Source of the DNA: Paramyrothecium sp. XJ0827
Lineage: Eukaryota; Ascomycota; Sordariomycetes; Hypocreales; Stachybotryaceae
Reading direction: 5' to 3'
NCBI GenBank assembly: GCA_020881915.1
Contig: JAJFPB010000003.1
Location: 4,960,001-5,024,000 of the forward strand
Length of the DNA: 64,000 nt
Shown here piece after piece: positions 2,344 through 44,793 of this stretch; the first letter of the stretch is position 1; each line of letters opens with the position of its first letter. Position numbers and translations under genes: made by a program. The notes under the pieces were generated by a model. It did not search any database and was not told the origin of the DNA. It saw only the letters and a program-made list of their open reading frames with translations.

Positions 2344-4156
2344 ATGACCCTTTTCCATCAATTGATCAGCCTACCTGGCTTGACGCTGGCTGCCTTGGCA
2401 GAATCGCTGTTGTTCACAAAGCTTTGTGGAGGCCAACTCCCGATTCAAACACGGCTTCCCGCTCTTGTAGGGATATTCCTGGCGAATTATGCCTGCTGGC
2501 CGATTTTTTGGTTCATATTGTATCCAATATATTTTAGCCCGCTTTGCCGACTACCAGGCCCAAGGGTAAGTCATTCCGTCGTCATCGATTTCCTACGTCC
2601 AAAGTGAAGCACGAGGCACAAGACACCTGCCATGATACATTAGTTAACAAAAACTCTCTGCTAGACGATCATCACACCTACTAATCGGTCACTGCTCGAA
2701 ACCAAAAGGCCGCCAGGCGATCTGTTCTTCGATGTCGCAAATGCGTATCCTGGCGAGGGGCTCATCTACCTGAGTCCACTCCAACGGCAGGTGTTGGTGA
2801 CGAATCCACGTCTGCTTGCGGATGTACTTGTCCACAATCCTTACGATTACATCAAACCGGCTAGAATCAGTGCGTTCCTCAGACACGTACTTGGCGATGG
2901 ACTCGTTGTCATTGAGGGCGACAAGCACAAGTTTTTGAGAAAGAACACGATGCCCGCATTCAGCTTCCGGCATATAAAAGACCTCTACCCCATGATGTGG
3001 GCAAAGGCCGAGATCCTATCTACAACGCTGAAGAGGGAAGAGCTGAGTTCGAGTAAGGAGTCGGCAGTAGTCGAACTCTCCACTTGGGCTAGCAAAGTGA
3101 CACTGGACATCATCGGTATTGCTGGCCTTGGCCGAGAGCTCAACACGCTTGAAAGATCAACCGACCCTCTCTCGAATATTTACGAGGAGCTGCTGGAGCC
3201 ATCGTCTGAAAAGCTCGCCTTTGTCTTGACTGCCTTCGTCTTTGGCGTATCCACAGTGAAACTGTTCCCTTGGAGAATGAATGGCATCTTCAACCATCTG
3301 ACCACATCGCTAAGCTCGATATGTCGAACTTTGATTCGCGACAAGAGAGATGCCATCATAAAAAACAAAGACGACCATTTTGATGTCCTTTCTTTGCTCA
3401 TCAAGACAAACAACTTTTCCGATGAGGAATTGAAGGACCAACTCCTGACATTTTTGGCTGCCGGGTGAGCAAAACTGTCGAGCCGTCTGACACTTCTTGT
3501 TGACCTCAGCTAACTTCCCATCTAGGCATGAGACTACATCGTCAGCACTTACCTGGGCGAGTTATCTGCTCGCCAAACACCCCGAGCTACAAGAGAAGCT
3601 ACGCGAAGAGGTGAGAGAGGCGCTGCCGGCCAACGAAACTATTGGGGCGATGCCAGACTTGGCTACCACATTGGAGCAGATGCCCTACCTCAACGGCATC
3701 ATGAATGAAACACTGCGTTTATATCCGACCGTCCCTTTGACAATACGGGAGGCGATTCGCGACACCAACTTAGGGAACCAGCCCATACCCAAAGGTACCA
3801 GCCTCGTGCTATCCATGTGGCTGATCAATCGGTCAACTGAGCTCTGGGGCCCTGATGCTGCCGAATGCCGCCCGGAACGGTGGATCACGGAAGCCGGCAA
3901 GCCCAATCAAAACGGTGGTGCAGCGAGCAATTATCACTTTCTGACCTTCCTTCATGGTCCGCGAAGTTGCATCGGGCAGGGGTTTGCCAGAGCCGAACTG
4001 CGTTGTCTCCTCGCCGCGCTTGTTCGCTCGTTCTCATGGGATCTCGCCATGGACGAGAAAGACATTCTGCCGAGAGGGGCCATTACCATCAAGCCCGCGA
4101 ATGGGTTGTATTTACGACTGAAACCTTTGGATGGCCTGACGGAGGTTGGCGCATAG
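2344..4156 (+). CDS. Cytochrome P450 monooxygenase
   Basis: A membrane-anchored haem monooxygenase of about 550 aa, normal for a microsomal fungal P450. Exons 2344-2565, 2665-3464 and 3526-4156 join in frame. The N-terminus is hydrophobic with several membrane-like stretches, followed by a proline-rich hinge (CRLPGPR). The I-helix motif AGHETTSSALTW is created across the second intron, the K-helix ExxR is ETLRLYP, and the haem loop is FLHGPRSCIGQGFA with the ligand cysteine near 3970. The overall pattern recalls CYP3/CYP5-like fungal clans, but I cannot assign a family or substrate. It sits between a Zn2Cys6 regulator and a secreted alpha-galactosidase. All canonical catalytic motifs are intact. 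Confidence 0.93.
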
Positions 4157-21714: not shown

Positions 21715-23937
21715 CGTAATCATAATAAGAAGAAATCAATCAATTACGACCCAAGTTTCGGGACGGAAGAAAGGACATAAGAATTAGTCTCATTGATGGT
21801 GAGCTGGAGACTATACGAGTAAAGTCTCTGTAACGGATCGCTCCAGTCTTCTTCTCGGTGACTGAACAGCAAAGGCAACAAGCCTTGCAAAACCCAGGCA
21901 ACCCAACTTGCACGACTAAACCTGAACATCGAGTGCCCCATTATCATCTTTGGATCTCCTATTCCAGCAGGGGCTACTATGTCCTTGATTCGTGAAGTGT
22001 CTGAGTAAAACTAGGAGATATCCCAAGTTTCCCCAGTTAAACGGCGATAGAACTTATTCGAGCTGTGTCTCTTATACAGGACTCGTTTGCTAGCAGTACA
22101 GTCAGTATCGGCTCATACTTTGCGATGATAAGATAGACGTCCGTCAGCAAAGAAAGCGTTACTAGCTTTCTGGCCCTTAAAAGTCATGTTCTGGTCATTG
22201 GGCACCTCATCCAAACTTGTGCGCCAAGATTAGGCTGCGCCCATGTCTATAATGATTGACGAGGTGGTTCCCACTACATCTCTTGGCACGTCAGTAGATT
22301 CGACAGGAAATCAACGATCGCAGAGAACCGTTCTGGAAGTGTCATATCAAGAGATACGTAGAACGTCCTGAATACGAGGGGATTTGCAACTCGCCTTACA
22401 CGACGAGAGCTTGAGCAGATGTCAGCATCATCAACATTGGTCTAATGTCATCAAGCATTTCCACAACTTGGGAGCATGCATGATAATTTCCGAGAATTGA
22501 AACCCAAGAATCAGAGACTTGAACCAATGGAAGATGGGCGGGAGGCAGACCAAGATAGGATTGCAGCGACCAGGCAAGCAGCCGAGTTCAACATATGGAA
22601 CTATGCCATGGCGACAACAAGTATGCTAACTTTTTGGCGGCGAAGCTTGAGCATTATCTGCAAGAGATGATGATGGCGAAAGAATTCCAGGACGGAACGA
22701 ACCACTGAAAAATCACCAGAGACGTATGGACGTGCTGAAAGTCACCGAAATTTCCCAGGCTTTCTTCTGCGAAATGGACGCTATAATCGACGTGAGACTT
22801 ACTAGCCTCTGACTTGGCTCAGGAGCGATGCAATCAACCCATCTCATCAATATCTTCAAACTGTTCAAGCCTATTCAGGGTTTTATTCATCCTGTACTGA
22901 AGCGCACGAATTGTTGCGACCTCAAGCTGCCGCTTTCGTTCAACATTTCGTTATGGTGATAGAACATCATAAGCGTTGGACAACACGAATCCTGGCGTAG
23001 TCATGTTTAGCTCAACTGGCCACAAACGAGATCCTGCAGCGTCAGTGTCTTGTCCGAATGGGCAGAGGTGGGGTCTACCATGCCAATACTCATGGTCAAT
23101 GGGCACTATCTCAGAATAGGCAAGTATCTTGGGAAAAGAATGATAAACTAGCTTGAATGAATGCGCGCTTGGAAGAATTCCCAACTCGGCTCCAGCATTC
23201 GTATGGGGAATCATTTTTATCCAAAACAGAACAGCACCAAATGACCTACAGCCTCAAATAGGCAGTCTGGCCCATGCTTTACGTATCAGAACCTTGCACG
23301 AGAGCACTTCGGGCTCCTCCATTCGTTCCCACGTGTGACCAAACGAGCAGCCCACGAGGATCGGGCGCCATGCCGGATGCATGAAGACAGGTTGGTGCTT
23401 GCGGGGATATCCCCTATTTGAGAGGGAGCCTTCGGATTTCGACCAGATTGGACGATTTGTTTCAGGTATAGGGAATAAGCTTCTACGGTCGGCAACTCGG
23501 TGCCGTACTAAGTGGTTCTGTAACTCCACTTCCGATTCCTAGTGCCTTCTTCCAGATTACAGGACATTTTCTAACCAATAACAGCCCGTCAAGCTATTGC
23601 TCGTATTCAATGCTCCCGGGATGGGGCCTGCCACTCCTGAGATGCATGGCATGGGGGACGGACAGAGGGAGGGGGATGGCAAAGGGCTTTGAAGACCCCA
23701 GTATCGTGAAAGACATACGCGCAAGTTTGTATATCAGGAACATGGCTGCCCAGCCCTGTAGCCTTATTCCGATCTCATGTTTCTATCTGGTCAATTCACA
23801 TTCGTTTCTTTCGCACACGTCTCTTGCAGACCGTCATTCTTTTGATTCTAACAACTTCTCACGTTACGCTGGCGTACATTCTCAATTAACCACAAACAGC
23901 AGTGCATTCTTTATAACAACACGCGACATTCTTTACA
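21715..23937. other. Gene-poor region
   Basis: About 2.2 kb without a supported gene. Around 22370-22700 a plus-strand coding-like relic (containing EADQDRIAATRQAAEFNIWN and, in another frame, AAKLEHYLQEMMMAKEFQD) is broken by frame changes; I do not recognise the family. The last few hundred bases hold the promoter and pyrimidine-rich leader of the pectin lyase. Confidence 0.45.
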
Positions 23938-25386
23938 ATGCATTTCCAAACAACTTCACTCCTGTTGAGTGCCATTGCCATGGCCACAACAGCCTCTGCG
24001 CAATCCGTGGTTGGCAAGGCTTACGGCTTCGCCACCGGCGTCACCGGTGGTGGCTCTGCCGCAGCCGTGGTTCCCAGCTCTGCCAGCGAGCTCGCCAAAC
24101 TCCTCGCCGACGACACGCCCCGGACTATCGTCATCAACAAGGCTTGGGACTTCACCGGTACGAAGGCCACCGGGTCCGGATGCGATCGAAAGTCCTGCAG
24201 CGCCAAGAGCGGAGGCCAGCTTTACCTCGGAGATTTGTCTTGCGGCGGCTCCGACAACGTTGCTGTGAGCTCCATCAGCTACGACAAGGCTGGTACTGAG
24301 CCCCTCATCGTTGGTAGTAATAAGAGCATTATTGGCTCCGGCGGAAAGGGTGTCCTTAACGGCAAGGGCCTTCGCATTAAGAAGGGCGCGAAGAACGTCA
24401 TCATCCAGGGATTCGAGGTTACAAACCTCAACCCCGGTATCGTCTGGGGCGGTGATGCTATCGACTTGCAAGGCGGTAATAATGGTGTCTGGATCGATCA
24501 CATGAAGATTTCCAAGGTCGGCCGCATGTTTATTGTTACCCACTACGACGGATCCCGCGTTACCGTTTCCAACAACGAATTCGATGGCCAAACAACTACA
24601 TCTGCCTCTTGCAACAACAACCATTATTGGACCATGATGTTCTATGGCAAGGGCGACCAGGTCACTCTCGACAGGAACTACTTCCACGATGTTTCTGGCC
24701 GTGCTCCTAAGCTCGGTGAGCCTGGTGTCACTGGTACCTTCCAGGCCAGCAACAACTACTTTAAGAACATGAAGGGTCACGCCTTCGATGTCTACCCCGG
24801 CGCTAGTGCTCTCCTTGAGGGCAACGTTTTCGACTCCGTCTCTACCCCTATCACCAAGCAGGGCGCTTCCGTCTCCACTGTTTACACCGTCAAGGATGCC
24901 TCCGCCGCTTCTGCCTGCTCGTCCTCCATTGGTCGTGCCTGCGAGGTCAACAACCTGTCAGCCAGTGGTGACTGGCCCTCGCTCAAGAACACCGGTGCTC
25001 TCTCTGCTTTGGCTAAGGCTAAGAACTATCTTGTTAAGCCTGTCGCTGCTAGTAAGGTAGCCAGCCTCGTCGGCGGCTCCGCTGGCCCAGCCAAGCTTGG
25101 CTCTTCGTCCGGAACTGCTCAGCCCGCCCCTGCCCCTGCTCCTGTGGAACCTACGAAGCCAACTGCAACTGCTCCTGCTCCTGCTCCTGCTAAACCTACC
25201 ACCGCCCCTTCTACTGGAGCTGTTGCCGCAGCCTGGTCTCAATGTGGCGGCCAAGGATGGAAGGGTGCCACCAAGTGCGCCTCTGGCACTACTTGTGTAA
25301 AGCAGAACGAGTGGTACTCTCAGTGCCTTACCGGTGGTGCTCGTCGCAAGGCTCGATCTGTTCGCCGTCAACAGATCCGCATTTGA
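23938..25386 (+). CDS. Secreted pectin lyase (PL1) with C-terminal CBM1
   Basis: Predicted extracellular enzyme cleaving methyl-esterified homogalacturonan by beta-elimination. Intronless, 482 aa. The signal peptide ([20 protein letters not shown]) is followed by [16 protein letters not shown], the typical pectin lyase start. Catalytic features of the parallel beta-helix are VWGGDAIDL (Asp near 173), VWIDHMKIS and [10 protein letters not shown] (Arg near 255), with the HYWTMMFYG strand. A Pro/Ala/Thr-rich linker (about residues 395-430) connects to a CBM1 ([11 protein letters not shown]...[11 protein letters not shown]), followed by a basic tail [10 protein letters not shown]. Pectin lyases with an appended cellulose-binding module are less usual than single-domain forms. 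A second pectin lyase follows on the same strand. Confidence 0.95.
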
Positions 25387-26680
25387 GGTCCTCGAACACT
25401 GATTTGGTCATCGCATGCGCATTTAAGCGGGTGCAAATGTGCCATAGCTGCGAGGCAATCCTCAATATTAAAGTGTACATATTAGAAAAATTACTGAGGC
25501 AATAAAATTAATGCGCGCCAGTAGCGCCAATACAAGACATCAACGACATCGTTTGCCCACAAGCTGTCAGGGAATGAAAAGAGTCCCAACGTATAATGAC
25601 GAGTACTTGAAGTGTGTGCTAGGATGAAGAAATTTAAGACATGGCAACAAATCTTGGCCAGAGTTCTCCAAACCCAATATCACGAGGACTTCAGCCAAAT
25701 GGACCATGCATGTCAATAGAATACGACAGAAGTACATAAGAATCTGGCTCCTGTATACCCTACGAGGATATACGAAAATCGGCTGACCTCAAGTATGTCC
25801 TACACGACTAATGGAGACTTTGCAATTGCACTTTGATGAACGAGAGATTAAACCATAGCTGCACAACCGTAGTTGTCGTATGATTGTCTCATACAGCTAG
25901 AATATCCATCAGTACCAATTGCTCATCGGACACACATGACGGTACACATCTGCTACAGCCTGTGCTCATGTTGGCTTAGATCGAGGGCGTGCCAATTACC
26001 ACTATACCGAATAAGTATATCTTTAGCCAAACAGGTATGGGGCACGAAAAGGGCTGATGATGATCAGCCTTTGTTTCATTTCAATTGGTACTAGCGGCCG
26101 ACTTAATGGCGAAACATCAGTTCATCGCAAGTTGAGGCATGGCCTCATTTGGGAACAAGCTACAAATTGAGCTACGCGTGGCCATACCCACATATTACAG
26201 TTTCACAACTATTAGGGATATTTAAGTGAGCCAAGAGAAGTGGGCACCTCGACAGGCGTTTCTTTAAAATGAATGCTTACGAGTTTCCTTGGTTTTGCAT
26301 ACATGACCACTATAATAACACAACCGCCATCATCCCTGTACCTTGCACGTTATCGGCATTTGAGCGAGCACAATGAGATCTACACGATGCAGGACGAAAT
26401 CACTAGATTCCAGGAAGATTAGACCGTGGGACTGGAGAGGATATGGGTATGGCGAAGCATGCTATCCTGAGTAGGGTTAAATAACAGTCGTGCCCGGACC
26501 CCGCATCAGCAACGGATGTTTCTCTATTGTTTATACCCAAGCATCTTCTACCCTAGTACAAACCAACAGGGACGTGACAATCGAATTAAATTGAATCGTT
26601 CGGCTTACACTCGCAACTTCAACCACTTCCCTTGCTGGCCGTGCATTTTGTCTCCCTGGCTCACGTCTTCAGCAACAAAG
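25387..26680. other. Intergenic region between the pectin lyase genes
   Basis: About 1.3 kb of AT-rich sequence with the 3' flank of the first and the promoter of the second pectin lyase. No additional gene is supported. Confidence 0.45.
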
Positions 26681-27866
26681 ATGCGTTCAGCTTTCGCTCT
26701 ATCCGCGGTCCTGGCTGCTTCTGTGCCTTCCATCTCTGCTGCCGCCACAGGAGAAGCTGAAGGGTTCGCTGCCGGCGTTACTGGTGGAGGCAGCGCGCCG
26801 GATGTGTTTCCGACGACAACCGATGAGCTCATCGAATATCTTGGTGATTCAGAACCGCGAAACATTGTGCTTACAAAAGAGTTCGACTTCATTGGCACTG
26901 AAGGCTCCGCTACCGAGTCTGGATGTGCACCGTGGGGTACTGGCTCAGGGTGTCAGGTTGCTATCAACCATGGTGATTGGTGCAACAGAGAACAGCCTGA
27001 CGCCCCAAAAGTCGATAGCATAATGTACGACAAGGCTGGCGTAACTGGAATTACTGTCACTTCCAACAAGTCTCTGGTTGGTCAAGGTTCGTCAGGTGTG
27101 ATCCGTGGCAAGGGCCTCCGCATCAGGGGCGGAGCGCAGAATGTCATCATCCAAAACGTGCACATCACCGAGCTAAGTAAGTCTGGAAGTCGAGTACTCA
27201 GAGAAGGGACAAGCTGACAAATGAAAAGATCACCAGTACGTTTGGGGCGGTGATGCCATTGACCTTGATGATGCCGATATGATCTGGATCGACCATGTCA
27301 CCACGTCGAAGATCGGTCGGCAGCACTATGTGGCTGGGAATGGTCCCAGTGGCCGTGTTACCATCTCAAACTCGGAAATCGATGGCCGCACCGACTTCTC
27401 TGCCACTTGCGATGGTCATCACTACTGGAACATGCTCCTGATCGGCTCTAACGACCAAATCACCCTTAAGAACAACTACTTCCACGGCACGAGTGGGCGG
27501 TCACCCAAGGTTGGCGGAAATACCGTAATGCACGCTGTCAACAACGTTTGGTCTGACGTGTCGGGCCAAGCTTTCGAAACGGACTCAGGTGCCAAGATCC
27601 TAATCGAGGGCAATGTTTTCGACAATGTTAAGACCCCGATCAAGGCAGGCTCGGGTCAATTGCTCGCAATAAATGCAGGAGACACTGGTGAGCAGTGCGA
27701 CAGTCAGCTTGAGCGTTTGTGCGAGGCCAACGCGCTTAGCGGCTCTGGAAGCATGAGCGCGGATGATGCAAGTATTTTGAGCAGCATCAAGGCTCCGGCT
27801 GCCGCAGCGCCCGCCGACGAGATCAAGAACAGTGTTATTCAGTCGGCTGGCTTTGGAAAACTTTGA
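26681..27866 (+). CDS. Secreted pectin lyase (PL1), single domain
   Basis: A second pectin/pectate-lyase-family beta-helix enzyme, 377 aa. Exons 26681-27176 and 27229-27866 are joined by a 52-nt intron (CTAA|GTAAGT ... AAAAG|AT), which recreates [17 protein letters not shown]. The signal peptide is [20 protein letters not shown]. Hallmarks include [13 protein letters not shown] near the mature start, [20 protein letters not shown] and [11 protein letters not shown] with the catalytic-site Arg. No CBM or linker is present. It is clearly paralogous to the preceding pectin lyase, but diverged (this copy has an intron and additional cysteines such as [13 protein letters not shown]). The tandem arrangement points to an old duplication. 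Confidence 0.93.
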
Positions 27867-29663: not shown

Positions 29664-31346
29664 ATGGCACTTTTGAAACAAGCCATACTTTTTGGGCCGA
29701 TACCGTTGGCTATTGTGGCCATCGCTATCGCTCTCCTCCGTCCGGCCGCACAGCCGGTCACAACAGAGAAGCTGCTCATTCCTGGCCGGAACAACACGGT
29801 GCTCTTCATCACATCAGAAGCCAGTGGCTTGTCGAACGTACACGTTGCAGCCACCTCAGCGCTACTAGAACACCATCCGACGGTCGAAGTTCATTACGCC
29901 TCTTTCCCAAAATTGCGCGAAAAGCTGGGTCGCATCTCAGAAGCAGCAGTGGCCAGGAACCCTGCTGCAAAACCTGTCATATGGCATGAGTTGCCGGGCG
30001 CCGACATGACAGAGGCTTGCCTCAGAAAGTGGAAAAACTTCGACGGCTTAGTGGCCGCCCCTGGATTCGCTGGGCTCGGAAAGACCTTGAAGGATCTGTC
30101 GGTTGTGATGAGTCCCTGGGAGCAAGAAGAACATTGGCGATTGTATATGGAACTTCTCGGGATAATCGAGAAAGTAGACCCAGCCGTTGTCGTTCTTGAT
30201 AGTTTCTTCCACCCAGCTTCTGATTTGACAGCCAACTCGGATCGTCGATTTCTGTTTCTGAGCCCTAATACCGTTGCTGAGCTCTTTGCTTCGCGTCAAC
30301 CCTGGGGCGCGGTGTTCTGGAAATACCCTGCGTGAGTCGCTCTGCCTCAAATCCCAACGAATTCTGCTAATTGTGCAAAGGCTGGCGTCTGGTAGCCCAT
30401 TTCCTATTCCGTGGAGACTCATACCGCACAACGTTCTTTTTCAGCTTCGTTTGATCTGGGGTATTGTGATGAATCCGGCACTGAACGGGATGCGGAACTA
30501 TCTGGAACAAAAAGGTGTTAAAGACGCCACCAACTTGAGTATTGAGTCAAAGGGAGTCCCATTTCTGATTGCGACCTTACCGGAGGTTAACCTACCGCTT
30601 GAGGTATACCCCAATGGCACAAAGTTCGTCGGACCGGTTGTCATTGAGACTGCGCCAGCTGCAGAGCAGGATCCCGACTTGGCATTGTGGCTCAAACGAG
30701 CGCCAACAATGCTGATTAACTTGGGAAGCCTCTTTCAGTACTCAAGGGATAAAGCAGAAGCAATGGTTGGGGCTCTCTCAACGGTTCTGGCAGAGACACA
30801 AGATGTTCAGGTGCTCTGGAAATTCCGCAAGGCTGGAGATTACACCGATGAGGTTTTTGAACCTGTAAAATCTCACATCGACAGTGGGAGACTCCGGATT
30901 GAGACCTGGCTGCAGGCTGATCCTGTATCACTGCTTCAAACAGGCGATATCACGGTCTTTGTGCATCATGGAGGCGCTGGCTGCTACCACGAAGCAATTT
31001 GGTAAGTGAATGCGCTGTTTTGCTGTTACATACTCTTGCTCATTGTTGCTCTAGGACTGGCGTCCCACAGGTTATTTTGCCTCTCTGGATAGATTTATAC
31101 GGCGTGGCTCGGACAGCGGAGTATGTTGGCATTGGTGTTTGGCCTGGCAAGGAGACAGCCCCAGTTTGGAAGCCAGAGGCACTGGCCGAAAGCTTCCTGG
31201 AAGTGCTTGTAGGAGAGCGCGGCAGGTCAATGCGGGAAAAATCAAAGGCGTTGGCCGAAATTGCGAGAGGATATGGAGGCCGTAACAGTGCTGCCCAGGA
31301 AATCGCCAGAATGGCCACTTTGGCTGAGACCTCTATAAAGGTTTGA
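29664..31346 (+). CDS. UDP-glycosyltransferase, GT1-like, membrane-anchored
   Basis: Predicted to transfer a sugar from a UDP-sugar to a small acceptor. Exons 29664-30331, 30381-31001 and 31055-31346 give about 526 aa. The N-terminus MALLKQAILFGPIPLAIVAI is a membrane anchor or signal. The C-terminal GT-B half has LINLGSLFQYS and the donor-site signature FVHHGGAGCYHEAIW (residues about 416-430), continuing across the last intron as TGVPQVILPLWIDLYGVA, the HGG and PLxxDQ-like positions of GT1. It is the first gene left of the RiPP precursor and convergent with it, so it may glycosylate the peptide product. That is positional inference; it could also be an independent sterol or secondary-metabolite glucosyltransferase. 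Confidence 0.88.
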
Positions 31347-32101
31347 CATGTTGAAGTAGTAAATGGCGGTTGGCTTCAAGAAGTTGATCACATGAGAAAA
31401 GTCCTCCATCTGCAGTTAGCAATCAGCCAGAAGCTGAATTTGGGGCGTCTGCAATGATAGGATATCAGCATATATTCATTTTTAAATATTCTTTGTAGAA
31501 GATTCCTGTTCGAATGGCTGGCCCGTCCACATCCATAGTGCGAGATTATACTGACACGCTGAAATTTAAAGCGTAGTACACAAGAACATCTCGACACCAC
31601 CTTGAAGAAATTTAAAAGCGCATGTTTGTTTTTTATCCACCACTTTTCTGGTTACATTTATACTTCAGAGACTTGCGACATATGTTTCACACCTCCGATT
31701 AACGTCATTTCAAAAAGGATGCTAGTTTATGCTGTTTTACAAATACAGAACTGACCTCACGTGGTATCAAATAGCTCGAGAAACGTTCCACAAAGAATCT
31801 ACTCCTGCACTTCAGTAAGTCAACGAGGACAATAGCCATGAAGATAATATGTCGAGGCTTCTAGAACATAGAAATAGACTGATTGCACTCGGTGGATATG
31901 AGTTTATTTGAGAGACTATAAGATAGAAAGGATTGTAGAACCTCCTTTGCGTCTGCTACCTCCTTGGGCATTCTGATAGACAAAAATCCCCACCTCATAA
32001 CAATTTCAGTTCACTTGTGCCAATCGTCAGCTTGGTTGCAAGATTTGGGCGCATCAATGTGACAACCATAGGCAATGGTATCAGGATGAGCCTTCCGAGT
32101 C
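31347..32101. other. Intergenic region between convergent glycosyltransferase and RiPP precursor
   Basis: AT-rich 3' flanks of both genes. No gene supported. Confidence 0.45.
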
Positions 32102-33184
32102 TTAGACAGTGGGCACGGTGGGCACATCATCGGTGTGACGACCATAGGCGACAGCGTTAGGCACCTCCTCCACATCGTTGATCTTGCGGCTATAGGCGAC
32201 AGTACCAGGCTCGCGCTTTTCGGTCGACTTAACAGGGACATCATCAGTGTGACGGCCATATGCGACAGCACTGCGCTCGACAGTGGGAACGGAGGGCACG
32301 TCATCAGTGTGTCGACCGTAGGCGACGGCACCAGGACTGCGCTTCTCGGTTGGCACAGTAGGTACATCATCGGTGTGACGACCATAGGCGACAGCGTTAG
32401 GCTTGACAGGCACGTCGTCGGTGTGACGGCCATAGGCAACGGCAACACCGCGCTTTTCAGTCGGGACGGTGGGCACATCGTCGGTATGGCGACCATAGGC
32501 GACGGTGTTAGGCTTTACAGGGACATCATCCGTGTGACGACCATAGGCAACGGCAGCACCGCGCTTTTCGGTCGGCACGGTAGGGACATCATCGGTATGG
32601 CGACCATAGGCGACGGCGTTAGGCTTTACAGGGACATCATCCGTGTGACGACCATAGGCAACGGCAGCACCGCGCTTTTCGGTCGGCACGGTAGGGACAT
32701 CATCGGTATGGCGACCATAGGCGACGGCGTTAGGCTTTACAGGGACATCATCCGTGTGACGACCATAGGCAACGGCAGCACCGCGCTTCTCGGTGGGCAC
32801 GGTGGGCACATCGTCAGTGTGGCGACCATAGGCGACAGCGTTGGGCTTGACAGGGACGTCGTCGGTGTGACGGCCATAAGCAACGGCAACACCGCGCTTT
32901 TCAGTCGGGACGGTGGGCACATCATCGGTATGGCGTCCATAGGCAACAGCGTTGGGGACAGAGGGCACATCGTCGGTGTGACGTCCATAGGCGACAACAC
33001 CAGGATCGCGCTTCTCTGTCGACTTGACGGGCACATCATCGGTGTGGCGACCATAGGCAACAGCTTCACTCCAGTTAGATCAAGTTCACAAGAAGGATGT
33101 TTTCCTCATACCGCCAGTTGGGGCCGCGGTGGCGGTGGCCGCGAGAATGGCCACGACAGCGGCGGCGGAAAGCTTGAAGTGCAT
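32102..33184 (-). CDS. Repeat-containing secreted RiPP precursor (dikaritin/ustiloxin-type, kexin-processed)
   Basis: Exon 1 is 33184-33112 and exon 2 is 33063-32102, separated by a 48-nt intron (GTATGA ... TCTAAC ... GAAG) just after the signal peptide; total 344 aa. MHFKLSAAAVVAILAATATA is a signal peptide. The rest is almost entirely repeats: 16 exact copies of YGRHTDDVP, nearly all preceded by Val-Ala, and one variant (VAYSRKINDVEEVPN, about 32156-32212). Eight Lys-Arg sites (mostly PTEKR or STEKR) cut it into segments that mostly carry two cores each, the first ending VKPN or SVPN and the second TVPTEKR. This layout (leader, tandem near-identical cores with one Tyr, KR spacers) is that of ustiloxin/phomopsin-type precursors. 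Two UstYa-like genes follow divergently. The cyclised residues are unknown. Confidence 0.93.
32491..32850 (-). repeat. Tandem 111-bp repeat units inside the precursor gene
   Basis: A 37-codon unit (18-residue segment starting Gly-Ala/Val-Ala plus 19-residue segment ending in Thr-Glu-Lys-Arg) recurs with a 111-bp period. Adjacent copies beginning near 32594 and 32705 appear identical at the nucleotide level, including silent sites, whereas outer copies differ. This indicates recent unit duplication or gene conversion. Confidence 0.85.
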
Positions 33185-33906: not shown

Positions 33907-34824
33907 ATGGCAGGCGTTTTTCAAAAGAAACTGGAGCACGCTCCTGAACGTGATGATGAAACTATCTCCCAAGAGAGTCTTATCGACACTAGCATCACCA
34001 AGCTCCAGAAGAAGCGGGCGAAGAAAAGATTGATTCCGTGGATTATTGCTGCCATTGCCGGCATCATCACTGCAGCTATTCTGGGCTTCATGGTAGGCTC
34101 CTTGTCACAAGGCAACGCAAATGCCGTTCAGGATGGTGAGTAAGACAATGCGTCTGGTTCTTCTGTTATGACCAAAGTTCTAAGTCTCCAAGCAGATATT
34201 GTGTTCAGTGAGCTGAACTTGGACCGAAAATTAAGTCCCAATCACAAATCCAGCTGGAGCACCCACGAGGTGGACTCCATCTACCTTCAACCCCCGAGCC
34301 CTGAGGTTGATGCCGCATGGGACGAGTTATCTCTTGAAGATTTCGAGGTGACGACAATCAGCGGAGAGCAGGCGCGAGCCCTCGGCCGCGATGTTAGCCT
34401 TCTCTCCAAAGTGCCCGAGAGCTGGGGCCTGGGGCCAGATCGCTATTTCGTCCAGATCCACGTATTCCACCTGATTCACTGCCTGGATGAGGTCCGCAAG
34501 TACATACATTACGACCACTATCATCTGGCAAAATTTGGGAAAAAGCCGACGCCCGAGTTCATCAACCACAAGAATCACTGCCTGCACATGTTATTGGAAA
34601 ACCTATTGTGCCAGAGTAGCAGCGACGTGATTACGCACAACTGGCGAGAGACGTACCACGTTCCCTTGGCTGACTTCAACCCGCCCAGACAGTGCAGGAA
34701 TTTCGATGCGCTGAGGGCTTGGGGAAAGGAGCATGCGATACCAGACTATCGATCGAAGTGGATCAAGCTTCAAGTTCCGTCGGATGCAGTGGTCCTACCT
34801 GCACCGACACCAAGATTGTACTAG
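33907..34824 (+). CDS. UstYa-like (DUF3328) oxidase, first of a pair
   Basis: Predicted membrane-anchored enzyme for oxidative peptide macrocyclisation in the RiPP pathway. Exons 33907-34135 and 34196-34824 give 285 aa. The N-terminal cytosolic tail is charged (KKRAKKR), then comes one transmembrane helix (LIPWIIAAIAGIITAAILGF). The lumenal part carries the two diagnostic histidine-cysteine motifs: HLIHCLDEVRKYIHYDHY and, after a spacer, HKNHCLHMLLENLLCQSS, followed by DVITHNW and NPPRQCRNF. This HxxHC ... HxxHC arrangement is the signature of UstYa/UstYb proteins of ustiloxin biosynthesis. It is divergent from the precursor gene, sharing its promoter interval, which strongly suggests co-regulation. 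The substrate core is inferred from proximity only. Confidence 0.92.
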
Positions 34825-35793: not shown

Positions 35794-36831
35794 ATGACAT
35801 CAAAATATGTGCCCCTGACTCTAGAAGAGGAGCAGGATGTGCAAGTGAGTCGGCACTCATTGTCGGGCAGCACTTCATCAACTGACCTGGTACAGGACGG
35901 CTTCGTGACAAAGCCAAGATGGCGCACCGCTGCCGACGTGAGCCTACGGTGGCTCAACCGGATTATGGTCGTGTTTTCGGTTTCGTGCCTCGTCCTGGCC
36001 TATAACCAGCGTCGTGGAAGCTATCAGTGGCACTTGAAGCAAACTTCTGCATTTTGTAAGGCCCTCTCCTACAGCAACATGATCATCCTATGATAGAGAA
36101 CTGACGCGCTTGAGCCAGCACCTCTCCTCGAGAAGATAAACCTTGGCGAGGCTGTCAGCCGATACGAGGTCAACGAGCTTTTCAACCGGCCTGTTGATCC
36201 ATATCGCGGTGCACCATCGGCCGAAGTCGACGCTCTCTGGGAGTCCATCTCTGATATTGGTATTATTCTGATTAGCGGCGAGGACGTCCGCCGACTTGGC
36301 AAAGATCCAACGAAAACAGTCAAAGCACCAAAGCATTGGGGTGAGGAGGCAACTCTCTGCTACCGTTTGTGATGCTCGGACCTAACAGGATCTCTAGGCT
36401 TTGGTGGCGATGCGCACCTTGCACAAATTGACGGGCAACACCGGCTTCACTGTCTCAATGTGCTGCGCAAGTGGGCGCACTACGATTACTATTTCCGCCC
36501 TGCGTATGGGGACGATCCCGGGGTGCTTCACAACTCCCACCGAGACCACTGTCTGGCTTTGCTGTTGCACACTCTAACCTGTCAACCGAGTTTGGATATT
36601 ATCACGCACAACTGGGTAGACACCCAGCCGTATCCGGTACCAGACTTCAACATGAACCGTCAATGCAAGAACCACCAGAAAATCATGGACTGGCAGCATC
36701 GGAACAGAATCACGGCGGAGCAATGGGACGAGGTTGCAGAGATGGCACGGCCAAAAGAGGACTTCATCTTGCCTTTGTGGCCAGAGCTTGTCGAAATAAA
36801 CAGGAAGAATGGACTGAACGCGACTGTTTGA
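35794..36831 (+). CDS. UstYa-like (DUF3328) oxidase, second of a pair (UstYb-like)
   Basis: Second DUF3328 protein, 305 aa from the chosen ATG (an upstream in-frame ATG at 35734 would add 20 residues). Exons are 35794-36055, 36119-36340 and 36398-36831. The opening MTSKYVPLTLEEEQD is typical of this family, followed by a membrane helix (IMVVFSVSCLVLAYN). The two signature motifs are QHRLHCLNVLRKWAHYDYY and SHRDHCLALLLHTLTCQPS, then DIITHNW and NMNRQCKNH. Known dikaritin pathways generally need more than one UstY-type protein, so a pair beside one precursor is the expected minimum. The two proteins are clearly diverged, so they may act as a heteromer or at different steps. Confidence 0.92.
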
Positions 36832-37382: not shown

Positions 37383-39176
37383 ATGCGTATAATACACATT
37401 CAGGTTGACTTGAGAGAAGCTCCGCGTGGCCTTATCCACGTCCGGGTAGAACTTCCCGTGCAGCCCGGCACTGTCGCCCGCTTGACGACACCTCTTTGGA
37501 TCCAAGAGTCCCACAGAGACAACGGGCCGGTCTCGGGCATTGTCGGCTTGTACTTCTCGGCCCGGAACAAGACGCTACCCTGGCGGCGCAACCCTAAGGT
37601 TGCATCCGAGTTCTGGGTGGATGTGCCCCTTGGTGTAGAGACGGTGTGTGGGGCATTCGACGCTGTCATCACGCGTAAAGTCACAAGACGCCTTGTGATG
37701 CTGGACTGGGAGCACGTGCTCCTCTATCCTTCTCGCCGCGACGTCAGAAACATTCTCATCCAGGCTCGCATTATCGTGCCGGTAAGATGGGGCGTCGGCA
37801 CGGCCCTGCAGGACCTCGGTGGGGTTGGTGTCTCAAACACTGCTGACGGCTCAGGAGAGACTCTGACTTATCAACCGGCCAGCCTCGACCGCTTAGCTGA
37901 CTCGCCCGTTTTGACCGGCCTCAATTTTCAGGGGCTTACAATCTCCCCCGACCATAGGCACATCCTTTGCGTTGCTGGAGACACGGCAGAGTCGGTAGCG
38001 ATACCCAAGACGACGCAAGCCAAGCTAGCAGCTCTTGTGAAGCAAACACAGCTTGTTTTCGGGTCGAGACACTACGATACCTTTCGTTTTCTTGTTGCCC
38101 TTACCGATTACTGGTCCGCCTATGGAGGGTCTGAGCATCACAACTCCTGCGATATTTTTATTCCAAGCAAGGCGTTGCTAGGACCTGAAATGCTGGAGAA
38201 GTACGGGCCTGTATTAACACACGAGTTCATCCACTCATGGAACGGAAAGTATCGCCGCCCAGCCGGGCATGCGCCTCGTGATTTCGCAACGCCGCTTGAC
38301 GGTAGGCTCTTGTGGGTGTATGAGGGCCTGACCCAGTACTACGACGGCGTCATCTCCGTTCGTAGTGGTATCATGTCACCCCTTACCTACCGGGCAGAAC
38401 TTGCCAATCACATCGCTTGGCTGGAAGGCCGGACAGGACGTCTGTGGAGGTCCACTGAAGACACAGGCACTGGCGCCAGTCTTCGCGCAGGATCTGCATG
38501 GGAGAACTGGGCACGTAGCGGACAGGATTATTACTATGAAGGAATCATGATATGGCTTGATGTTGATACCATTATCCGCAGCAAGAGCGAGGGTAAGCGC
38601 TCACTTGATGATTTCACAAGGGCGTTCTTCGGACGAGGGATCACGACAGAACCCAAAGTCGTGCCTTACACTCTTGATGAGATAATTTCTCACCTCAACG
38701 CTGTCACCTCTCATGATTGGGGGGCTTTCTTCAAAGACAAAGTGTTGAATCCTTTGCCGAATGTGGATATCGAAGGTGTCGAGCGCTCTGGGTACCGTTT
38801 CTCTTATAGGCGGGAGCCACAAGTGGGACAGCACAGCGACAAATCAGTCAAAGACGCAATTTGGAACTCTGTGGGTATCAAAATTGCCGAGGGCGGCGAG
38901 TTGGAGGATGTGCGTCACGGCGGTCCTGCTGACATTGCTAAGGTCGCACCGAGGCAAACTATCACCAAAGTTGGTGGGAAACCATTCGATTTGAAGACAC
39001 TTGCCGTGGCTGTCAATTCGGTGAAAGCAGATGGAGGCGACCCTATCCAGCTCATTGTAACACAAGAAGGGGACGAGTGGTCAGTGGAGATCTACTATGC
39101 GGACGGGCTGCGATATCCGGTGCTTGAGCGACAGCCTGGTACGCCAGATATACTCTCTTTTATCCTTATGTCGTAG
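37383..39176 (+). CDS. M61-family metallopeptidase (glycyl aminopeptidase-like) with PDZ domain
   Basis: Predicted zinc aminopeptidase, 597 aa, intronless. The N-terminal M61 beta domain begins MRIIHIQVDLREAPRGLIHV. The gluzincin site is HEFIHSWNGKYRRPAG (His280, Glu281, His284) with the third ligand Glu314 in LLWVYEGLTQYYDG. Toward the C-terminus, a PDZ-like segment (EDVRHGGPADIAKVAPRQ, ITKVGGKPF) is the usual companion of M61 enzymes. Family members are best known as glycyl aminopeptidases with preference for N-terminal Gly or Ala. It sits right after the UstY pair, and five of the kexin-released precursor segments begin with Gly, so a trimming role is plausible. No signal peptide is evident at the chosen start; an upstream in-frame ATG at 37239 gives a more hydrophobic N-terminus. 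Confidence 0.9.
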   Translation: MRIIHIQVDLREAPRGLIHVRVELPVQPGTVARLTTPLWIQESHRDNGPVSGIVGLYFSARNKTLPWRRNPKVASEFWVDVPLGVETVCGAFDAVITRKVTRRLVMLDWEHVLLYPSRRDVRNILIQARIIVPVRWGVGTALQDLGGVGVSNTADGSGETLTYQPASLDRLADSPVLTGLNFQGLTISPDHRHILCVAGDTAESVAIPKTTQAKLAALVKQTQLVFGSRHYDTFRFLVALTDYWSAYGGSEHHNSCDIFIPSKALLGPEMLEKYGPVLTHEFIHSWNGKYRRPAGHAPRDFATPLDGRLLWVYEGLTQYYDGVISVRSGIMSPLTYRAELANHIAWLEGRTGRLWRSTEDTGTGASLRAGSAWENWARSGQDYYYEGIMIWLDVDTIIRSKSEGKRSLDDFTRAFFGRGITTEPKVVPYTLDEIISHLNAVTSHDWGAFFKDKVLNPLPNVDIEGVERSGYRFSYRREPQVGQHSDKSVKDAIWNSVGIKIAEGGELEDVRHGGPADIAKVAPRQTITKVGGKPFDLKTLAVAVNSVKADGGDPIQLIVTQEGDEWSVEIYYADGLRYPVLERQPGTPDILSFILMS

Positions 39177-40377
39177 AATTCTGTGGCTCGTCTTGTTCAT
39201 GTCAAGAAGCCGAATACTTAGAGGCTCATTATGTACCCTATGGCTGCTACTTTATGTGAATGTTGACTAGAAACATGGAAAAGGGACTGCTGGAAAGATA
39301 AATTTATTTCATGTCTCATCGCGTATGTGAATTATATGAATCTACCCGAGCTCTTCATTACACTTCACTATTACAATTTTAGCTATTCAGAGCCCCCCCC
39401 CTATCATACCAGAAGAGACGGCTTGAGTTGTTGGTTCTAGATTCTAGAAGCGACAATCAAAGTTTCAAGAACAACGTGGCATTGGCGGTATTGCTCTTCA
39501 GGGCGAGATACTCTAGAGACCATCATTGCAACCATCTACATGAATTCCAACAGTGCCTACTTCCACTTCTAAATTAATACATTTCTAACCACGCGCTAAT
39601 GTACATGGGATGCTGAGGATGAGGCATTTTGCATTGGCAAGTTGAAACATCTCCCCAGCGGAAAAGTATCAACTTGTTCTAGCTTGGACTGAACTTGCGG
39701 CTCTGTCTTGGTGGTTTGTGGCTCTCAAATAGCTCGCATAAGCGACTTCAATTGAGAGAAAGAAGAAGCCTAGACATGTGTTTCTCCTAAAATGACAAGA
39801 AAGAAAGACAGAAAACTAGCTTGGCAGATATCAGTTGGGTTTGTTGACCACACTTGAGACGAGGTGGGTCGACTGCTCGAAAGGTGTTTGCCAGCAGAGG
39901 AGAATCCAATAATTTTGATAGTCATCGACCTCCGATTAGCTTCCGTCGCCAGTCATGTTATTGCACAGACAATGCTCTATCCTACGGTCCAGGCACGGAA
40001 CGGATAAGGCGTGCACGTCAGGCCCACAGGGTACCGAATGTGGAGATGGCTTGCGCCCTCCAACTACATGTTGTATGCAGGAGGCGCTGTCAGTCAAAGG
40101 CAAGGAAGAGCCTGCTTTCGCACTTTCGGCTCTAGATGTAATTACCGAGATGATCCTGCGTATATCATTATCTAATTTAGCTTGTGCCCATTAGCTCTGA
40201 CGGGTTGATCGATTCGGGCAAGCCCTCGTCGGGTGTCGTTTTGACTCCGACCTTCGGCGCTACCATTGCGCCATACCAGACTTTCGCCGCCCTGAACCCA
40301 AAAAAGAAGTGGTACGAAAGGCAACCAGGCTGCGTATGATTTACTTCTCGTCCGACTTTCAAGTGAGCTTCAGGATC
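39177..40377. other. Intergenic region
   Basis: About 1.2 kb. Short frames at 39854-40194 are unsupported. A possible upstream exon or longer leader of the following oxidoreductase cannot be excluded. Confidence 0.4.
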
Positions 40378-41412
40378 ATGGGCACCAACGACAGGGAAAA
40401 AGGGCGTGAGGCATGTCTGGAGATCAACCCGAAGGGCTTCTTTTTGCGACCTCCCCCAGAGCCTCACAATCTTTCAACATTCCTGACAAATGACGAGAAG
40501 CTTTTCCAAACCATCCATATGGGTGCAGCAGTGGTTGACGTCAGGAAATGGATGCTCGTTGTTGATGGCATGGTTCAGAAGCCATTTACTCTTACTTTTG
40601 ACCAGCTATGCAGCTTACCGACGACTACAATCACATCCTTCCATGAGTGTTATGGCAGTCCACTAAAACCTCCAACTGAAGCGCTCTGGCGTATCGGCAA
40701 CGTTACATGGACTGGAGTCGCGCTATCGCATATCATCGATCTAGCGGAACCATACCCAGAAGCACAATTCGTCTGGTCTGAAGGGCTAGACCACGGTACA
40801 TTTGCCGGCGTTCACTCAGATTCCTATCAAAAAGACCTGCCCCTTGCAAAAGCACTCAGTACCGAGGTGCTCGTGGCCTTCGCCATGAACGGGGAACCAT
40901 TGAACAAGGAACGGGGAGGACCCGTACGACTTGTGGTGCCAGGCTGGTTCGGTACGAACTCAACAAAATGGCTTTCCAGGTTGTCTGTACAGGATCGAAG
41001 GGCGCCGGGCCCATATACCACGACGTTCTACAATGAGTTAGATCCTGGGGATCCCCTTCAACAGAGGCTACGACCAGTGTGGGCTGTGGATGTGAACTCT
41101 ATGATTACGTCGCCAGCGCCCGGTTCAATATTTCATGAACCTCGTGTGACTATTGAAGGATGGGCTTGGGGCAATGATGCAGTAGAAAAGGTCTTGGTGC
41201 GAGCCGGGGCAGACCAGCCTTGGTTCGAAGCTGTTGTCAGTAAGAGAACTGGATTTAGCTGGCAGAAATGGGAGCTTTCAATCTCGTTGCCGAACGGAGA
41301 GCACACAGTTTCGGCGCGTGCCGCGACTTCTTCTGGTCAGCAACAGCCCTTGACTGGCCGAAGAAACCATGTTCATTCGATCACACTGTCTGTTCGTGCT
41401 GGAGGTGTTTAG
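40378..41412 (+). CDS. Molybdopterin oxidoreductase, sulfite-oxidase family
   Basis: Predicted Mo-cofactor enzyme of about 344 aa. The start at 40378 is chosen because its context (A at -3, C at -1, G at +4) is much better than the in-frame ATG at 40336. The Mo domain includes DVRKWMLVVDGMVQKPFTL, the region with the candidate Mo-ligand cysteine (ITSFHECYGSPLKPP), and ALWRIGNVTWTGVAL and GGPVRLVVPGWFGTNSTKW, both conserved in the family. The C-terminal half resembles the Mo-co oxidoreductase dimerisation domain (RVTIEGWAWG). There is no haem b5 domain, so it is not a complete animal-type sulfite oxidase. It lies within the putative RiPP cluster and could oxidise the peptide or a sulfur group, though this is positional inference. 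Confidence 0.85.
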   Translation: MGTNDREKGREACLEINPKGFFLRPPPEPHNLSTFLTNDEKLFQTIHMGAAVVDVRKWMLVVDGMVQKPFTLTFDQLCSLPTTTITSFHECYGSPLKPPTEALWRIGNVTWTGVALSHIIDLAEPYPEAQFVWSEGLDHGTFAGVHSDSYQKDLPLAKALSTEVLVAFAMNGEPLNKERGGPVRLVVPGWFGTNSTKWLSRLSVQDRRAPGPYTTTFYNELDPGDPLQQRLRPVWAVDVNSMITSPAPGSIFHEPRVTIEGWAWGNDAVEKVLVRAGADQPWFEAVVSKRTGFSWQKWELSISLPNGEHTVSARAATSSGQQQPLTGRRNHVHSITLSVRAGGV

Positions 41413-41505: not shown

Positions 41506-42768
41506 CTATCTATCTAGTGCTGCAACTATTCTGCGAAGGCCTTCGTCAAGTTCATGCATCGGCAGGGAATATACGATTCTGAACCAGCCCGGTTGCTCAG
41601 ATCCGAATGATTCACCAGAAGCCACCAGAACCTTCTGATCCGCCAGAGACATGACCAGGGCTTCATTCGCATCCTTCGATGTCAGATCGGGGTGTCTCTC
41701 CTGAAACGCAGCACCCAAGTTCACCCAAACAAAGAAGGCGGCGTTAATTCCAGGGGCTAGTGGAACTCCATGCCCTTGAGCCCAGGTTTCCACAAGGCTA
41801 TACCTTTCGGCCAGACTCGCTCGGTTATCTGCGATGAACTTCTCTGTCCACTCTTGGTCATCCAGTATGTCGACCACGGCCGCCTCCGCAAGCGAGGATG
41901 GAGAGCTGTGAATGGAAGTGTATGAGATCGCCCCGTGTAGATCCGGGTTCTGCTGTGATATCACAGCCCCGATGCGCAAGCCGTTGACTCCAAAGTCTTT
42001 CGATGTGCCCCATACCACATGTAACAACGAAGGGTCTATTAGATCCGTCGTGTTGATTGACAAGCAGGAGTGGAACTGCTCTCCAGGGCCCCAAACAGAG
42101 AGGGCGTAGATCTCGTCGCTGATAAGGTGTATCTGATACTTCTGGCAAAGCTGCATCAATTGAATGATTGTGCTGCGTGGATAGCAGCGTCCAGTAGGAT
42201 TGTGTGGGTTGCATAGAATGATCCCCTTGATTCGTTCGCCCTTTGCTTGAGCACTGAGCAACGATGCCTCGTACCGCCCTGCTGCCTCTGGACCAAAGGG
42301 GTCGACGTCTGCAAAACTCACTGGAGCTGTGTTGACATGCATCCTCGATCCCAAGGTGGTCAGAAACGCTCGAAAATAAGGCCTGCCCACGAGGAACGCT
42401 TCCTCCGGATCAGCGAGAGCCCAAGCCAGCTGCTCAACTGCTGAGCAGCAGCCGTTCGTGACTGTAACGTCGCTGGGATTGATAGCAATGGCGGGCCGGA
42501 GGTGCGTCGTGAGGAACCTCGATAGCACAAGTTTGAGTCGATTCGTTCCCGTGGTTCCCTCCCCGTATGTGAGCATGTGCTGGGTTACTTGAACACCAGA
42601 AAGTAGACGGGGAAGAAGCCGTGAGTGCATCAGGGTGTTTTCCGCCATAGCCATGCTGACAAACCCTCCCGGGTTGCTCTGAGGGTCCCAAAGGTTCTTT
42701 AAAACCTCCCAGATGAGTGTCTTGCTGTTTGCCTTGGCGGCGTCGCGTCCTCGACTGGAAAGCGACAT
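41506..42768 (-). CDS. PLP-dependent aminotransferase, ACC-synthase-like (class I/II)
   Basis: Predicted fold-type I pyridoxal-phosphate enzyme, 420 aa, intronless; the start is the first ATG (42768). Visible landmarks: the N-terminal SMAMAENTLMH and TYGEGTTGTNRLK, the NGCCSAVEQLAWAL segment, ILCNPHNPTGRCYP (PLP-aspartate region), LISDEIYALSVWG, and WGTSKDFGVNGLRIGAV carrying the Schiff-base lysine. This pattern is that of ACC-synthase-like proteins common in fungal secondary-metabolite clusters (for example the C-S lyase type in gliotoxin-like pathways). It may act as lyase or transaminase rather than true ACC synthase. It is divergent from the adjacent MFS exporter with 370 bp between them. 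Confidence 0.9.
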   Translation of the reverse strand: MSLSSRGRDAAKANSKTLIWEVLKNLWDPQSNPGGFVSMAMAENTLMHSRLLPRLLSGVQVTQHMLTYGEGTTGTNRLKLVLSRFLTTHLRPAIAINPSDVTVTNGCCSAVEQLAWALADPEEAFLVGRPYFRAFLTTLGSRMHVNTAPVSFADVDPFGPEAAGRYEASLLSAQAKGERIKGIILCNPHNPTGRCYPRSTIIQLMQLCQKYQIHLISDEIYALSVWGPGEQFHSCLSINTTDLIDPSLLHVVWGTSKDFGVNGLRIGAVISQQNPDLHGAISYTSIHSSPSSLAEAAVVDILDDQEWTEKFIADNRASLAERYSLVETWAQGHGVPLAPGINAAFFVWVNLGAAFQERHPDLTSKDANEALVMSLADQKVLVASGESFGSEQPGWFRIVYSLPMHELDEGLRRIVAALDR

Positions 42769-43138: not shown

Positions 43139-44793
43139 ATGGCTACAACGACTTTGACAATCCAGGCTCACGGGCCAGTTACCCAAGATGAACAAGAGCT
43201 TGGCGGACTTGGAGCCGCTCCGATGCAACTCGGCACGCGCACCGATCGAGGATACGATCCTGTATACTCTAGATTCACTATTGCTCAGAAAAAATCGGTT
43301 ACGTGGATTGTCGCTTATTGCGGACTTTTGGCATCCATGTCTACGACAAGTATCCTTGCAGCTGTCCCCGAGGTGATTGAGAGTTTCGAGACTACGACAA
43401 CTGTCATCAACATTAGCAATGCCTTATATCTTGTTGTGGTTGGCTTTTCGTGCTGCTTTTGGGGTCCGATGGCTGATACGTTCGGACGCAAACCAGTACG
43501 AATTTGCACTCGATCAATCAATCGCTCTGGGCACTGATGGAATTTTGATAGGCCTACATTGCTAGTACTGCTCTCTTCATGTTGGCTTCCATCGGCACCG
43601 CGCTATCGCCAAATCTCGTTGCTTTCTTCATCTTCCGAGCTTTGACTGCCGCACAGTCGACGGCTTTTCTCGTACTTGGATCAACCTGCGTCTCGGACAT
43701 CTACCATCCGGTCTGTCTAGCACCCTCGTAATGGAGTAATGGAGCATCTTCTAATTGGGAGTCAGGTCGAGCGTGCAACTGCTATGGGTTGGTTCCTGAG
43801 GGGTACACTGTTCGGCCCCGCATGTGGTCCAATCATATCTGGAATCATTGTCACGTACACGTCTTGGAGAGTCATATTTTGGCTTCAGGCAGCTATGACA
43901 GGAGTAGCACTTCTTCTCGCCATCTTCGTGCTACACGAAACGCTACAGCAGATTCGGTTCACCGAACTACGAGGAAAAGAACTATCCACTATAACCAGGA
44001 CACTGTGGGACTGGTCAAATCCCATCCTGGTCATCAAGTTGCTAGGAGAGAGGAACCTGTTATGTATAGTATGCGCTTCACCATACCCAGCAGGTTGATT
44101 TTTGTGAACTGACTTGATGATCAAGAGCATTGCCTCGGCAACAATGGCATTTAACATGTATTCGCTACTTACACCCATCCGTTACATCCTCAATCCAAGA
44201 CTCGGATTGACGACTCCATTGCAGTCGGGTCTACTCTACCTAGCGCCTGGAGTCGGTTACCTAATTGGATCAGTCATTGGCGGTCGCTGGTCAGATCGCG
44301 TAGTTAAGGTATGGGTCAAAAGACGTGGCTTGAGATTGTGGGAGGACAGACTTCGGGGCAGTCTCCTACTGATGGGGCTCGCATTACCTGGCTCAACATT
44401 ACTATACGGATGGGTGGTCGATCGGGGTGTTGGAGGCATTGCTTTCCCAGTCATCTGCATGTTCCTCCAAGGCGCTTCCCAGACCTGGGCGTTCCCTTGC
44501 CTGAATACGTATATCATGGATGTCATGCAGCATAAGAGTGGCAAAGCATCAGGTGAGTGAGTCGCTTACTGTTAAGGGATGCGGATTACTGAACAAGTGT
44601 AGCCAGCCATTACTTCGTACGATACGCATTCGCAGCTGTTGCAACAGCTAGCTGCATTCCGCTGATCGATAGCATTGGGGTAGGATGGACTGTTACCATC
44701 TCCTCGGCAATGGTCTTTATTGGTACTGGATTAGTCCTTCTTACAATTTACTCTGGTGGATCTTGGCGGAGCAGGCATAGGGTAGGAATCTAG
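43139..44793 (+). CDS. MFS transporter, DHA1-type exporter
   Basis: Predicted proton-coupled drug or metabolite exporter, about 478 aa. Five exons are inferred: 43139-43495, 43552-43710, 43766-44068, 44126-44552 and 44603-44793, all joining in frame. After an N-terminal tail, TM1 begins KKSVTWIVAYCGLLASMSTT, with the loop motif GPMADTFGRKP at the end of exon 1. Exon 2 supplies FRALTAAQSTAFLVLGST and exon 3 the antiporter-like motif region (GWFLRGTLFGPACGPIISG). Exon 4 contains APGVGYLIGSVIGGRWSDR. The chain is somewhat short but continuous. The gene borders the putative RiPP cluster and could export its product; only position supports that. Confidence 0.88.

Follow-up and report, generated by a model that had tools for sequence, protein, structure and literature searches.

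A seventeen-core precursor gene beside two UstYa genes in Paramyrothecium probably encodes a Kex2-processed fungal RiPP

The precursors of ustiloxins, phomopsins and asperipin-2a are described as having a leader and repeated cores, and their peptides are released by Kex2 and cyclised by DUF3328 enzymes (PMC6514808, PMC9233826). According to the same sources, the peptidases that trim the peptides along these three routes are incompletely known. UstY enzymes have been reported to be dicopper oxidases (PMC12186524). A 2022 review puts the number of confirmed dikaritin groups at three, with victorin in addition (PMC9233826), and few UstYa-dependent peptides have a known structure compared with the 1758 candidate precursors accompanied by UstYa (PMC9233826, PMC7329392), a number that comes from the report by Umemura 2020 of DUF3328 neighbours at 1758 of 7878 Kex2-repeat genes (PMC7329392). 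In that report, mating-factor or pheromone genes with a DUF3328 neighbour appear as three exceptions only. Le Marquer 2019 takes the XA/XP pattern of Ste13 as a sign of a peptide hormone, and describes this pattern as absent from cyclic-peptide toxin precursors and epichloecyclins (PMC6339444).

Here, we describe a repeat-bearing gene in a 64-kb window of the Paramyrothecium genome, the window being the whole stretch of DNA analysed (C9:4960001-5024000). The original prediction for this gene, a signal peptide, one intron, 16 exact cores, one variant and eight KR sites, is confirmed, the leader being signal-peptide-like by eye and the intron predicted (Table 1). Its shorter description, 17 repeats with YGRHTDDVP, is correct for the number of copies; 16 of them carry this exact motif and the seventeenth reads YSRKINDVE. 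The variant contains an additional dibasic pair, RK, and one spacer has ER where KR is expected. By eye, the leader looks like a typical secretion signal, and alignment reveals a similar leader in three homologs. The 48-nt choice of intron preserves the reading frame, and a 43-nt version ending at a closer AG was ruled out because it breaks the frame. Two further signals at the locus were rejected: the hit of the precursor to a phage coat protein model in Pfam (45.4 bits against a cut-off of 27, with no single stretch passing) was judged to be a repeat artefact, and the 372-aa open frame of the other strand mirrors the repeat.

Table 1. Positions of the precursor gene, its parts and the neighbouring genes within the window
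Feature	Position	Strand	Basis
Two-exon precursor gene for a 344-aa protein with leader and 17 core copies; start ATG at 33184, stop codon at 32102-32104	32102..33184	-	
Leader, signal-peptide-like, residues 1-21 (MHFKLSAAAVVAILAATATAA)	33122..33184	-	By eye; homolog alignment
Predicted intron, 48 nt, GTATGA...CTAAC...AG	33064..33111	-	Sequence signals
Array, 17 cores (16 YGRHTDDVP, 1 variant), 8 KR sites; 37-aa (111-nt) two-core unit	32120..33061	-	
Variant core YSRKINDVE	32168..32194	-	
Decayed core copy past the stop codon, in another frame	32052..32083	-	
UstYa-1, HLIHC (34468) and HKNHC (34567); predicted intron 34136-34195	33907..34824	+	PF11807 E=2.3e-40, second exon
UstYa-2, intron-split, HRLHC (36439) and HRDHC (36538)	~35794..36831	+	PF11807 E=1.4e-10 and 2.5e-29, two segments
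M61 peptidase, HEFIH (HExxH)	37383..39176	+	PF05299
Probable UDP-glycosyltransferase, with introns	29664..31346	+	Weak PF06722 E=8e-4, below cut-off, 1 of 3 segments
Molybdopterin (sulfite-oxidase-like) oxidoreductase, start codon uncertain	40336..41412	+	PF00174 E=3.2e-47
PLP-dependent class I/II aminotransferase	41506..42768	-	PF00155 E=4.1e-43
MFS transporter, several exons	43139..44560, end approximate	+	PF07690, three segments, one below cut-off

The tandem array in the precursor DNA has a period of 111 nt and a score of 968, and this score, together with the different DNA forms of the cores that leave the amino acids unchanged, argues that the array is not due to chance. A degenerate DNA search for the core (0 mismatches, CGN arginine codons) across the fungus's own genome (51.8 Mb in 15 contigs) recovered these 16 copies and no others. 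The 16 cores are written in 13 DNA forms, which require at least 13 synonymous changes and no amino-acid change. A random single change in the core is synonymous in 19 of 81 cases, and 13 synonymous changes out of 13 have a probability of 6.5e-9 under a simple model of equal rates and minimum changes. Across the five 37-aa units, the two cores together have 12 synonymous and no replacement changes, and the spacers have 10 synonymous and two replacement changes (P=1.3e-4 under the same model, the units not being independent), indicating that the spacers are also constrained, though less strictly than the cores. Units 1 and 5 differ at 10 nucleotides and at no amino acid. Purifying selection acts on the precursor cores, and the locus is very probably a real gene under selection.

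Cutting after KR divides the precursor into nine pieces, the first with one core and the other eight with two cores each; seven of these eight have both cores intact, and the remaining one joins an intact core to the variant. KR cleavage by itself therefore leaves the cores of the eight later fragments unseparated. Gly is the first residue in five of these eight fragments. The genome has one match to the kexin-type P-domain.

Two UstYa genes lie next to the precursor gene. UstYa-1 is divergent from it, with the two start codons 722 bp apart, and UstYa-2 starts about 2.6 kb from the precursor start. The UstYa-1 protein has a single N-terminal hydrophobic segment (by eye), and, of 205 candidates, 46 are homologs of its second exon at E<=1e-10. 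In 42 aligned sequences, comprising UstYa-1 and 41 of these 46 homologs, both HxxHC motifs are invariant (H104, H107 and C108; H137, H140 and C141). A structure model of the second exon has a mean pLDDT of 79.5; this model has no PDB fold match at E<=0.001, and a sequence search returned no solved relative.

Beyond UstYa-2 is an M61 peptidase gene, which is the only PF05299 match found in the genome. Its two best solved relatives are named putative glycyl aminopeptidases, one of them matching at 318 bits, and the frequent Gly at the start of the Kex2 fragments suits this name. The M61 protein has no obvious signal peptide by eye, which argues against a role in the secretory lumen. On the other side of the precursor gene, the HHGGAG...GVPQ pattern presumably marks a UDP-glycosyltransferase. 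We infer that the M61 peptidase and the glycosyltransferase take part in the cluster, and the MFS transporter is a possible exporter. Cluster membership of the molybdopterin oxidoreductase, which scores below the cut-offs of the sulfite dehydrogenase models, and of the aminotransferase is uncertain, and all five of these genes may lie outside the cluster. The glycosyltransferase side also has two genes for pectate lyases, of which one carries a cellulose-binding domain (window 23917-27866). A cytochrome P450 gene (window 2665-4153), at a distance of about 28 kb, is probably outside the cluster. The window contains no tyrosinase, which has 47 matches elsewhere in the genome. S41 peptidase (PF03572) has 0 matches in the genome, in a search that diverged or intron-split genes could escape, and the Pfam scans of the window found no methyltransferase domain among the 35 ORF segments that they covered.

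Relatives of the precursor occur in other fungi. A search with exon 2 alone (321 aa) returned no homolog at E<=0.01 among 7999 scored candidates; since a local control demonstrated that phmmer keeps such repeats, length limits are the suspected cause. A shorter query, which reaches shorter proteins, picked out three homologs from 2506 candidates at E<=10. They come from two Rhypophila species and one further assembly, and carry database names such as hypothetical or unnamed protein. All 11 of their intact cores fit AYGR[HY]TDD[VI] by eye, six with His and five with Tyr, a count that excludes two degenerate copies (VAYTKGDDV). The original prediction had proposed searching fungal proteins with the repeat, and this search yields three homologs in which the core is kept, with an exchange of His and Tyr at one position. 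Each homolog has three to four intact cores, compared with 17 copies here. KR occurs three times in one homolog and once in each of the other two, which means that they too contain cores without an intervening KR, but one of them, P0047, includes KR-bounded single-core fragments.

The oxidase and the precursor also appear together outside Paramyrothecium. In Rhypophila decipiens, the precursor (QBC37DRAFT_406585) and a UstYa protein (QBC37DRAFT_406584) have consecutive locus tags and lie on contigs of equal length (31,299), which suggests that the two genes are adjacent. Over its full length, UstYa-1 shares 77% identity with a protein of Paramyrothecium foliicola and 52% with one of R. decipiens; its closest relative is Hypocrealean. 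The homolog searches did not find a P. foliicola precursor, although they found its UstYa. Rhypophila belongs to the Sordariales and Paramyrothecium to the Hypocreales, and the core is accordingly common to the window fungus and a Sordariales genus, here with its partner oxidases.

Taken together, we interpret the gene as the multi-core precursor of a Kex2-processed, UstYa-modified fungal RiPP, with a probability of roughly 0.85. The multi-core RiPP precursor put forward in the original prediction is therefore well supported, chiefly by the two adjacent UstYa genes and by the consecutive precursor and UstYa tags in R. decipiens. Further support is provided by the selection on cores and spacers, the conservation of HxxHC in UstYa, the greater identity of UstYa-1 to its relatives in other fungi than to the other UstYa copies found in this genome, the cores of the homologs, the repeat ORFs at five of the 15 UstYa loci of this genome (see below), and the frequency of DUF3328 neighbours at Kex2-repeat genes and their rarity at pheromone genes in Umemura 2020 (PMC7329392). 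Several observations point the other way, namely the absence of a tyrosinase from the window, the P. foliicola precursor that was not found, the 10 of 15 UstYa loci without a KR-rich repeat ORF in the DNA examined, the five other neighbouring genes that may lie outside the cluster, and Ste13-like dipeptides of the kind reported absent from cyclic-peptide toxin precursors (PMC6339444).

In the proposed pathway, the leader would route the precursor into the secretory pathway, where Kex2 would cleave after the eight KR sites leaving one fragment with a single core and eight with two cores each. Next, the two UstYa oxidases encoded nearby would oxidise or cross-link the conserved core AYGR[HY]TDD[VI]; to judge from the family, its invariant Tyr is the most likely site. 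In ustiloxin and phomopsin, Tyr is joined to Ile. The core described here is charged and lacks Ile in the 16 main copies, and a different cross-link chemistry could thus arise. If single cores are the product, they must also be trimmed on either side and separated from each other, given that KR leaves the two cores of each fragment joined; the M61 peptidase is a candidate for this step. Later, the product may be glycosylated and exported by the MFS transporter. The two-core fragments make core trimming after Kex2 testable, with the M61 peptidase as a named candidate.

The two-core fragment could instead be the product itself, with both Tyr residues modified, one by each UstYa, or with the two Tyr residues cross-linked to each other. 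This is compatible with the RiPP interpretation and is consistent with the pairing of cores in all eight fragments after the first KR, with an array period that equals the 37-aa pair, and with the amino-acid identity of units 1 and 5 and the constraint on the spacers. However, spacer constraint is equally explained by enzyme recognition, homolog P0047 has single-core fragments, and the RK pair in the variant core, if used, would cut the last fragment. We consider a two-core product unlikely. A more specific proposal, in which Kex2 frees two-core pieces of about 35 to 40 residues as the processing unit and possibly the product of the RiPP family, two different UstYa copper oxidases modify them and a dedicated M61 peptidase cuts between or trims the cores, is in our view quite unlikely; if it were true, a fungus would be employing an M61 peptidase in a RiPP pathway. 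Among the literature matches listed, no fungal RiPP pathway with an M61 peptidase is apparent by title or abstract opening, and the wording "two core peptides" or "tandem core" does not occur for precursors.

The dipeptides at the fragment ends also fit a Kex2-repeat protein that releases unmodified linear peptides, similar to pheromones or hormones and trimmed by Kex1 and Ste13, with the UstYa genes as unrelated neighbours. The dipeptide following KR is XA or XP at six of the eight sites (DP, GA at three, SP and EP) and GV at the other two, and an XA dipeptide directly precedes Tyr in all 17 copies here (as VA) and in all 11 intact homolog cores. However, by eye, only one of the eight N-termini (SPGAVA-Y) allows Ste13 to trim all the way to Tyr. 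The mark of alpha-type pheromones, a full XA/XP ladder leading to each peptide, is thus present at one of eight N-termini, complete trimming is barred at the other seven, and the second core of each fragment is out of reach. The co-occurrence of UstYa-1 and the precursor here and, by locus tags, in R. decipiens also argues against unrelated neighbours, as does the near absence of DUF3328 neighbours from pheromone genes in Umemura 2020 (PMC7329392), and we judge this explanation very unlikely. A repetitive structural or surface protein of the repellent type, with no small product, would agree with the leader, the repeats and the Pro/Val-rich spacers, and has a precedent in Ustilago maydis Rep1, which is processed by Kex2 into peptides that stay on the hyphae (PMC6339444), but is extremely improbable in view of the UstYa linkage and of a charged core that is strictly conserved across species while the repeat number varies from 17 to three or four.

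The same genome contains further UstYa loci, as 28 UstYa exon matches group by position into 15 loci. At least five of the 15, including the precursor locus, have a KR-rich repeat ORF, and five is a lower bound because the loci were not covered equally: besides the window, the DNA examined spans 20 kb at each of six loci, 10 kb at each of another four and some 3 kb at each of the last four. The DNA examined at the other 10 contains no KR-rich repeat ORF, and neither does the rest of the 64-kb window. In tblastn searches, UstYa-1 is at most 35% identical to the other UstYa copies of the genome, leaving out a 19-aa piece at 47%; a 91% match (L040) is UstYa-1 itself. When the genome was searched with the precursor protein, a single match besides the gene itself emerged (E=1.3e-6, 22% identity); it corresponds to another repeat protein, encoded on contig C8 close to UstYa matches. 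A Kex2-repeat precursor with ten STNNQAGWG repeats and nine KR/RR sites lies near UstYa matches on C8 near 562 kb (L050:6204-6812). On C5 near 591 kb (L053:1922-2686), several UstYa matches adjoin a Kex2-repeat ORF with eight DADAA repeats, mostly DADAAEKYKLY, which resemble the DADAATXYV[A/V]D motif given in Le Marquer 2019 (PMC6339444). Repeat ORFs with UstYa matches nearby are also present on C9 near 4.742 Mb (L056:2152-2793), with HHQGAKTN...NANGRKNRNGNNKR units, and on C10 near 5.535 Mb (L055:8864-9094), where a short ORF of 77 aa has an ADGF-KRDEEV repeat. On C15 near 2.6255 Mb (L045:437-883), an ORF with a signal-like leader and four ADAREKPSIWLRE repeats has UstYa matches nearby; it is without KR, and its locus is counted among the 10.

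Comparison with described systems places the precursor in the broad UstYa/Kex2-repeat class, which it fits. The class calls for an N-terminal secretion signal, which the leader resembles by eye, for three or more repeats, each of 8 aa or longer and flanked by dibasic sites, and for a DUF3328/UstYa neighbour; the locus has 17 cores, eight KR sites and two such genes. Like the KEPs (Kex2-repeat proteins) accompanied by UstYa that Umemura 2020 and Le Marquer 2019 describe, it combines a signal-like leader, repeats bounded by dibasic sites and a nearby DUF3328 gene, and AYGR[HY]TDD[VI] differs from every motif given in the main-text sections consulted. The core is unlike the named dikaritin cores, as the original prediction held, and its letters were not found in fungal papers by a search of main texts; AYGRY alone gives literature matches that are unrelated by title. 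The suggestion of an ustiloxin/phomopsin type holds for the broad class. UstA and PhomA likewise have a signal-like leader, 16 and 8 KR-flanked cores, respectively, and UstYa-family enzymes (PMC6514808). However, their core is EDYxI (PMC6339444), in contrast to AYGRHTDDV here, and they come with a tyrosinase, a methyltransferase and an S41 peptidase, none of which our searches turned up, the methyltransferase search covering 35 ORF segments of the window. Without an EDYxI core, and with neither tyrosinase nor S41 peptidase found, the precursor falls outside the ustiloxin-phomopsin subfamily.

Epichloecyclin (GigA) has a core different from that of this precursor. Its similarities are a leader, repeats, KR sites and Tyr cyclisation, and it is described with four repeats (PMC9233826, PMC6514808). 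MfuP, of a Myxococcus lanthipeptide cluster, is likewise an M61 peptidase encoded among RiPP genes, although it is bacterial and cuts inside a lanthionine ring (PMC10885120), whereas the M61 role proposed here is inferred. Asperipin-2a of Aspergillus flavus (AprA/AprY) is similar in its repeated cores, in the DUF3328 oxidase encoded with the precursor, and in that its four genes include neither a tyrosinase nor a methyltransferase; it differs in its FYYTGY core, its one UstY, the isoflavone reductase AprR and the transporter AprT (PMC6514808). To call the locus an undescribed system was therefore too strong. The core family is new, the UstYa-accompanied Kex2-repeat class to which it belongs is known, and within this class the precursor is unusual in having two cores per KR-bounded fragment and the sole M61 gene found in the genome beside its UstYa genes.
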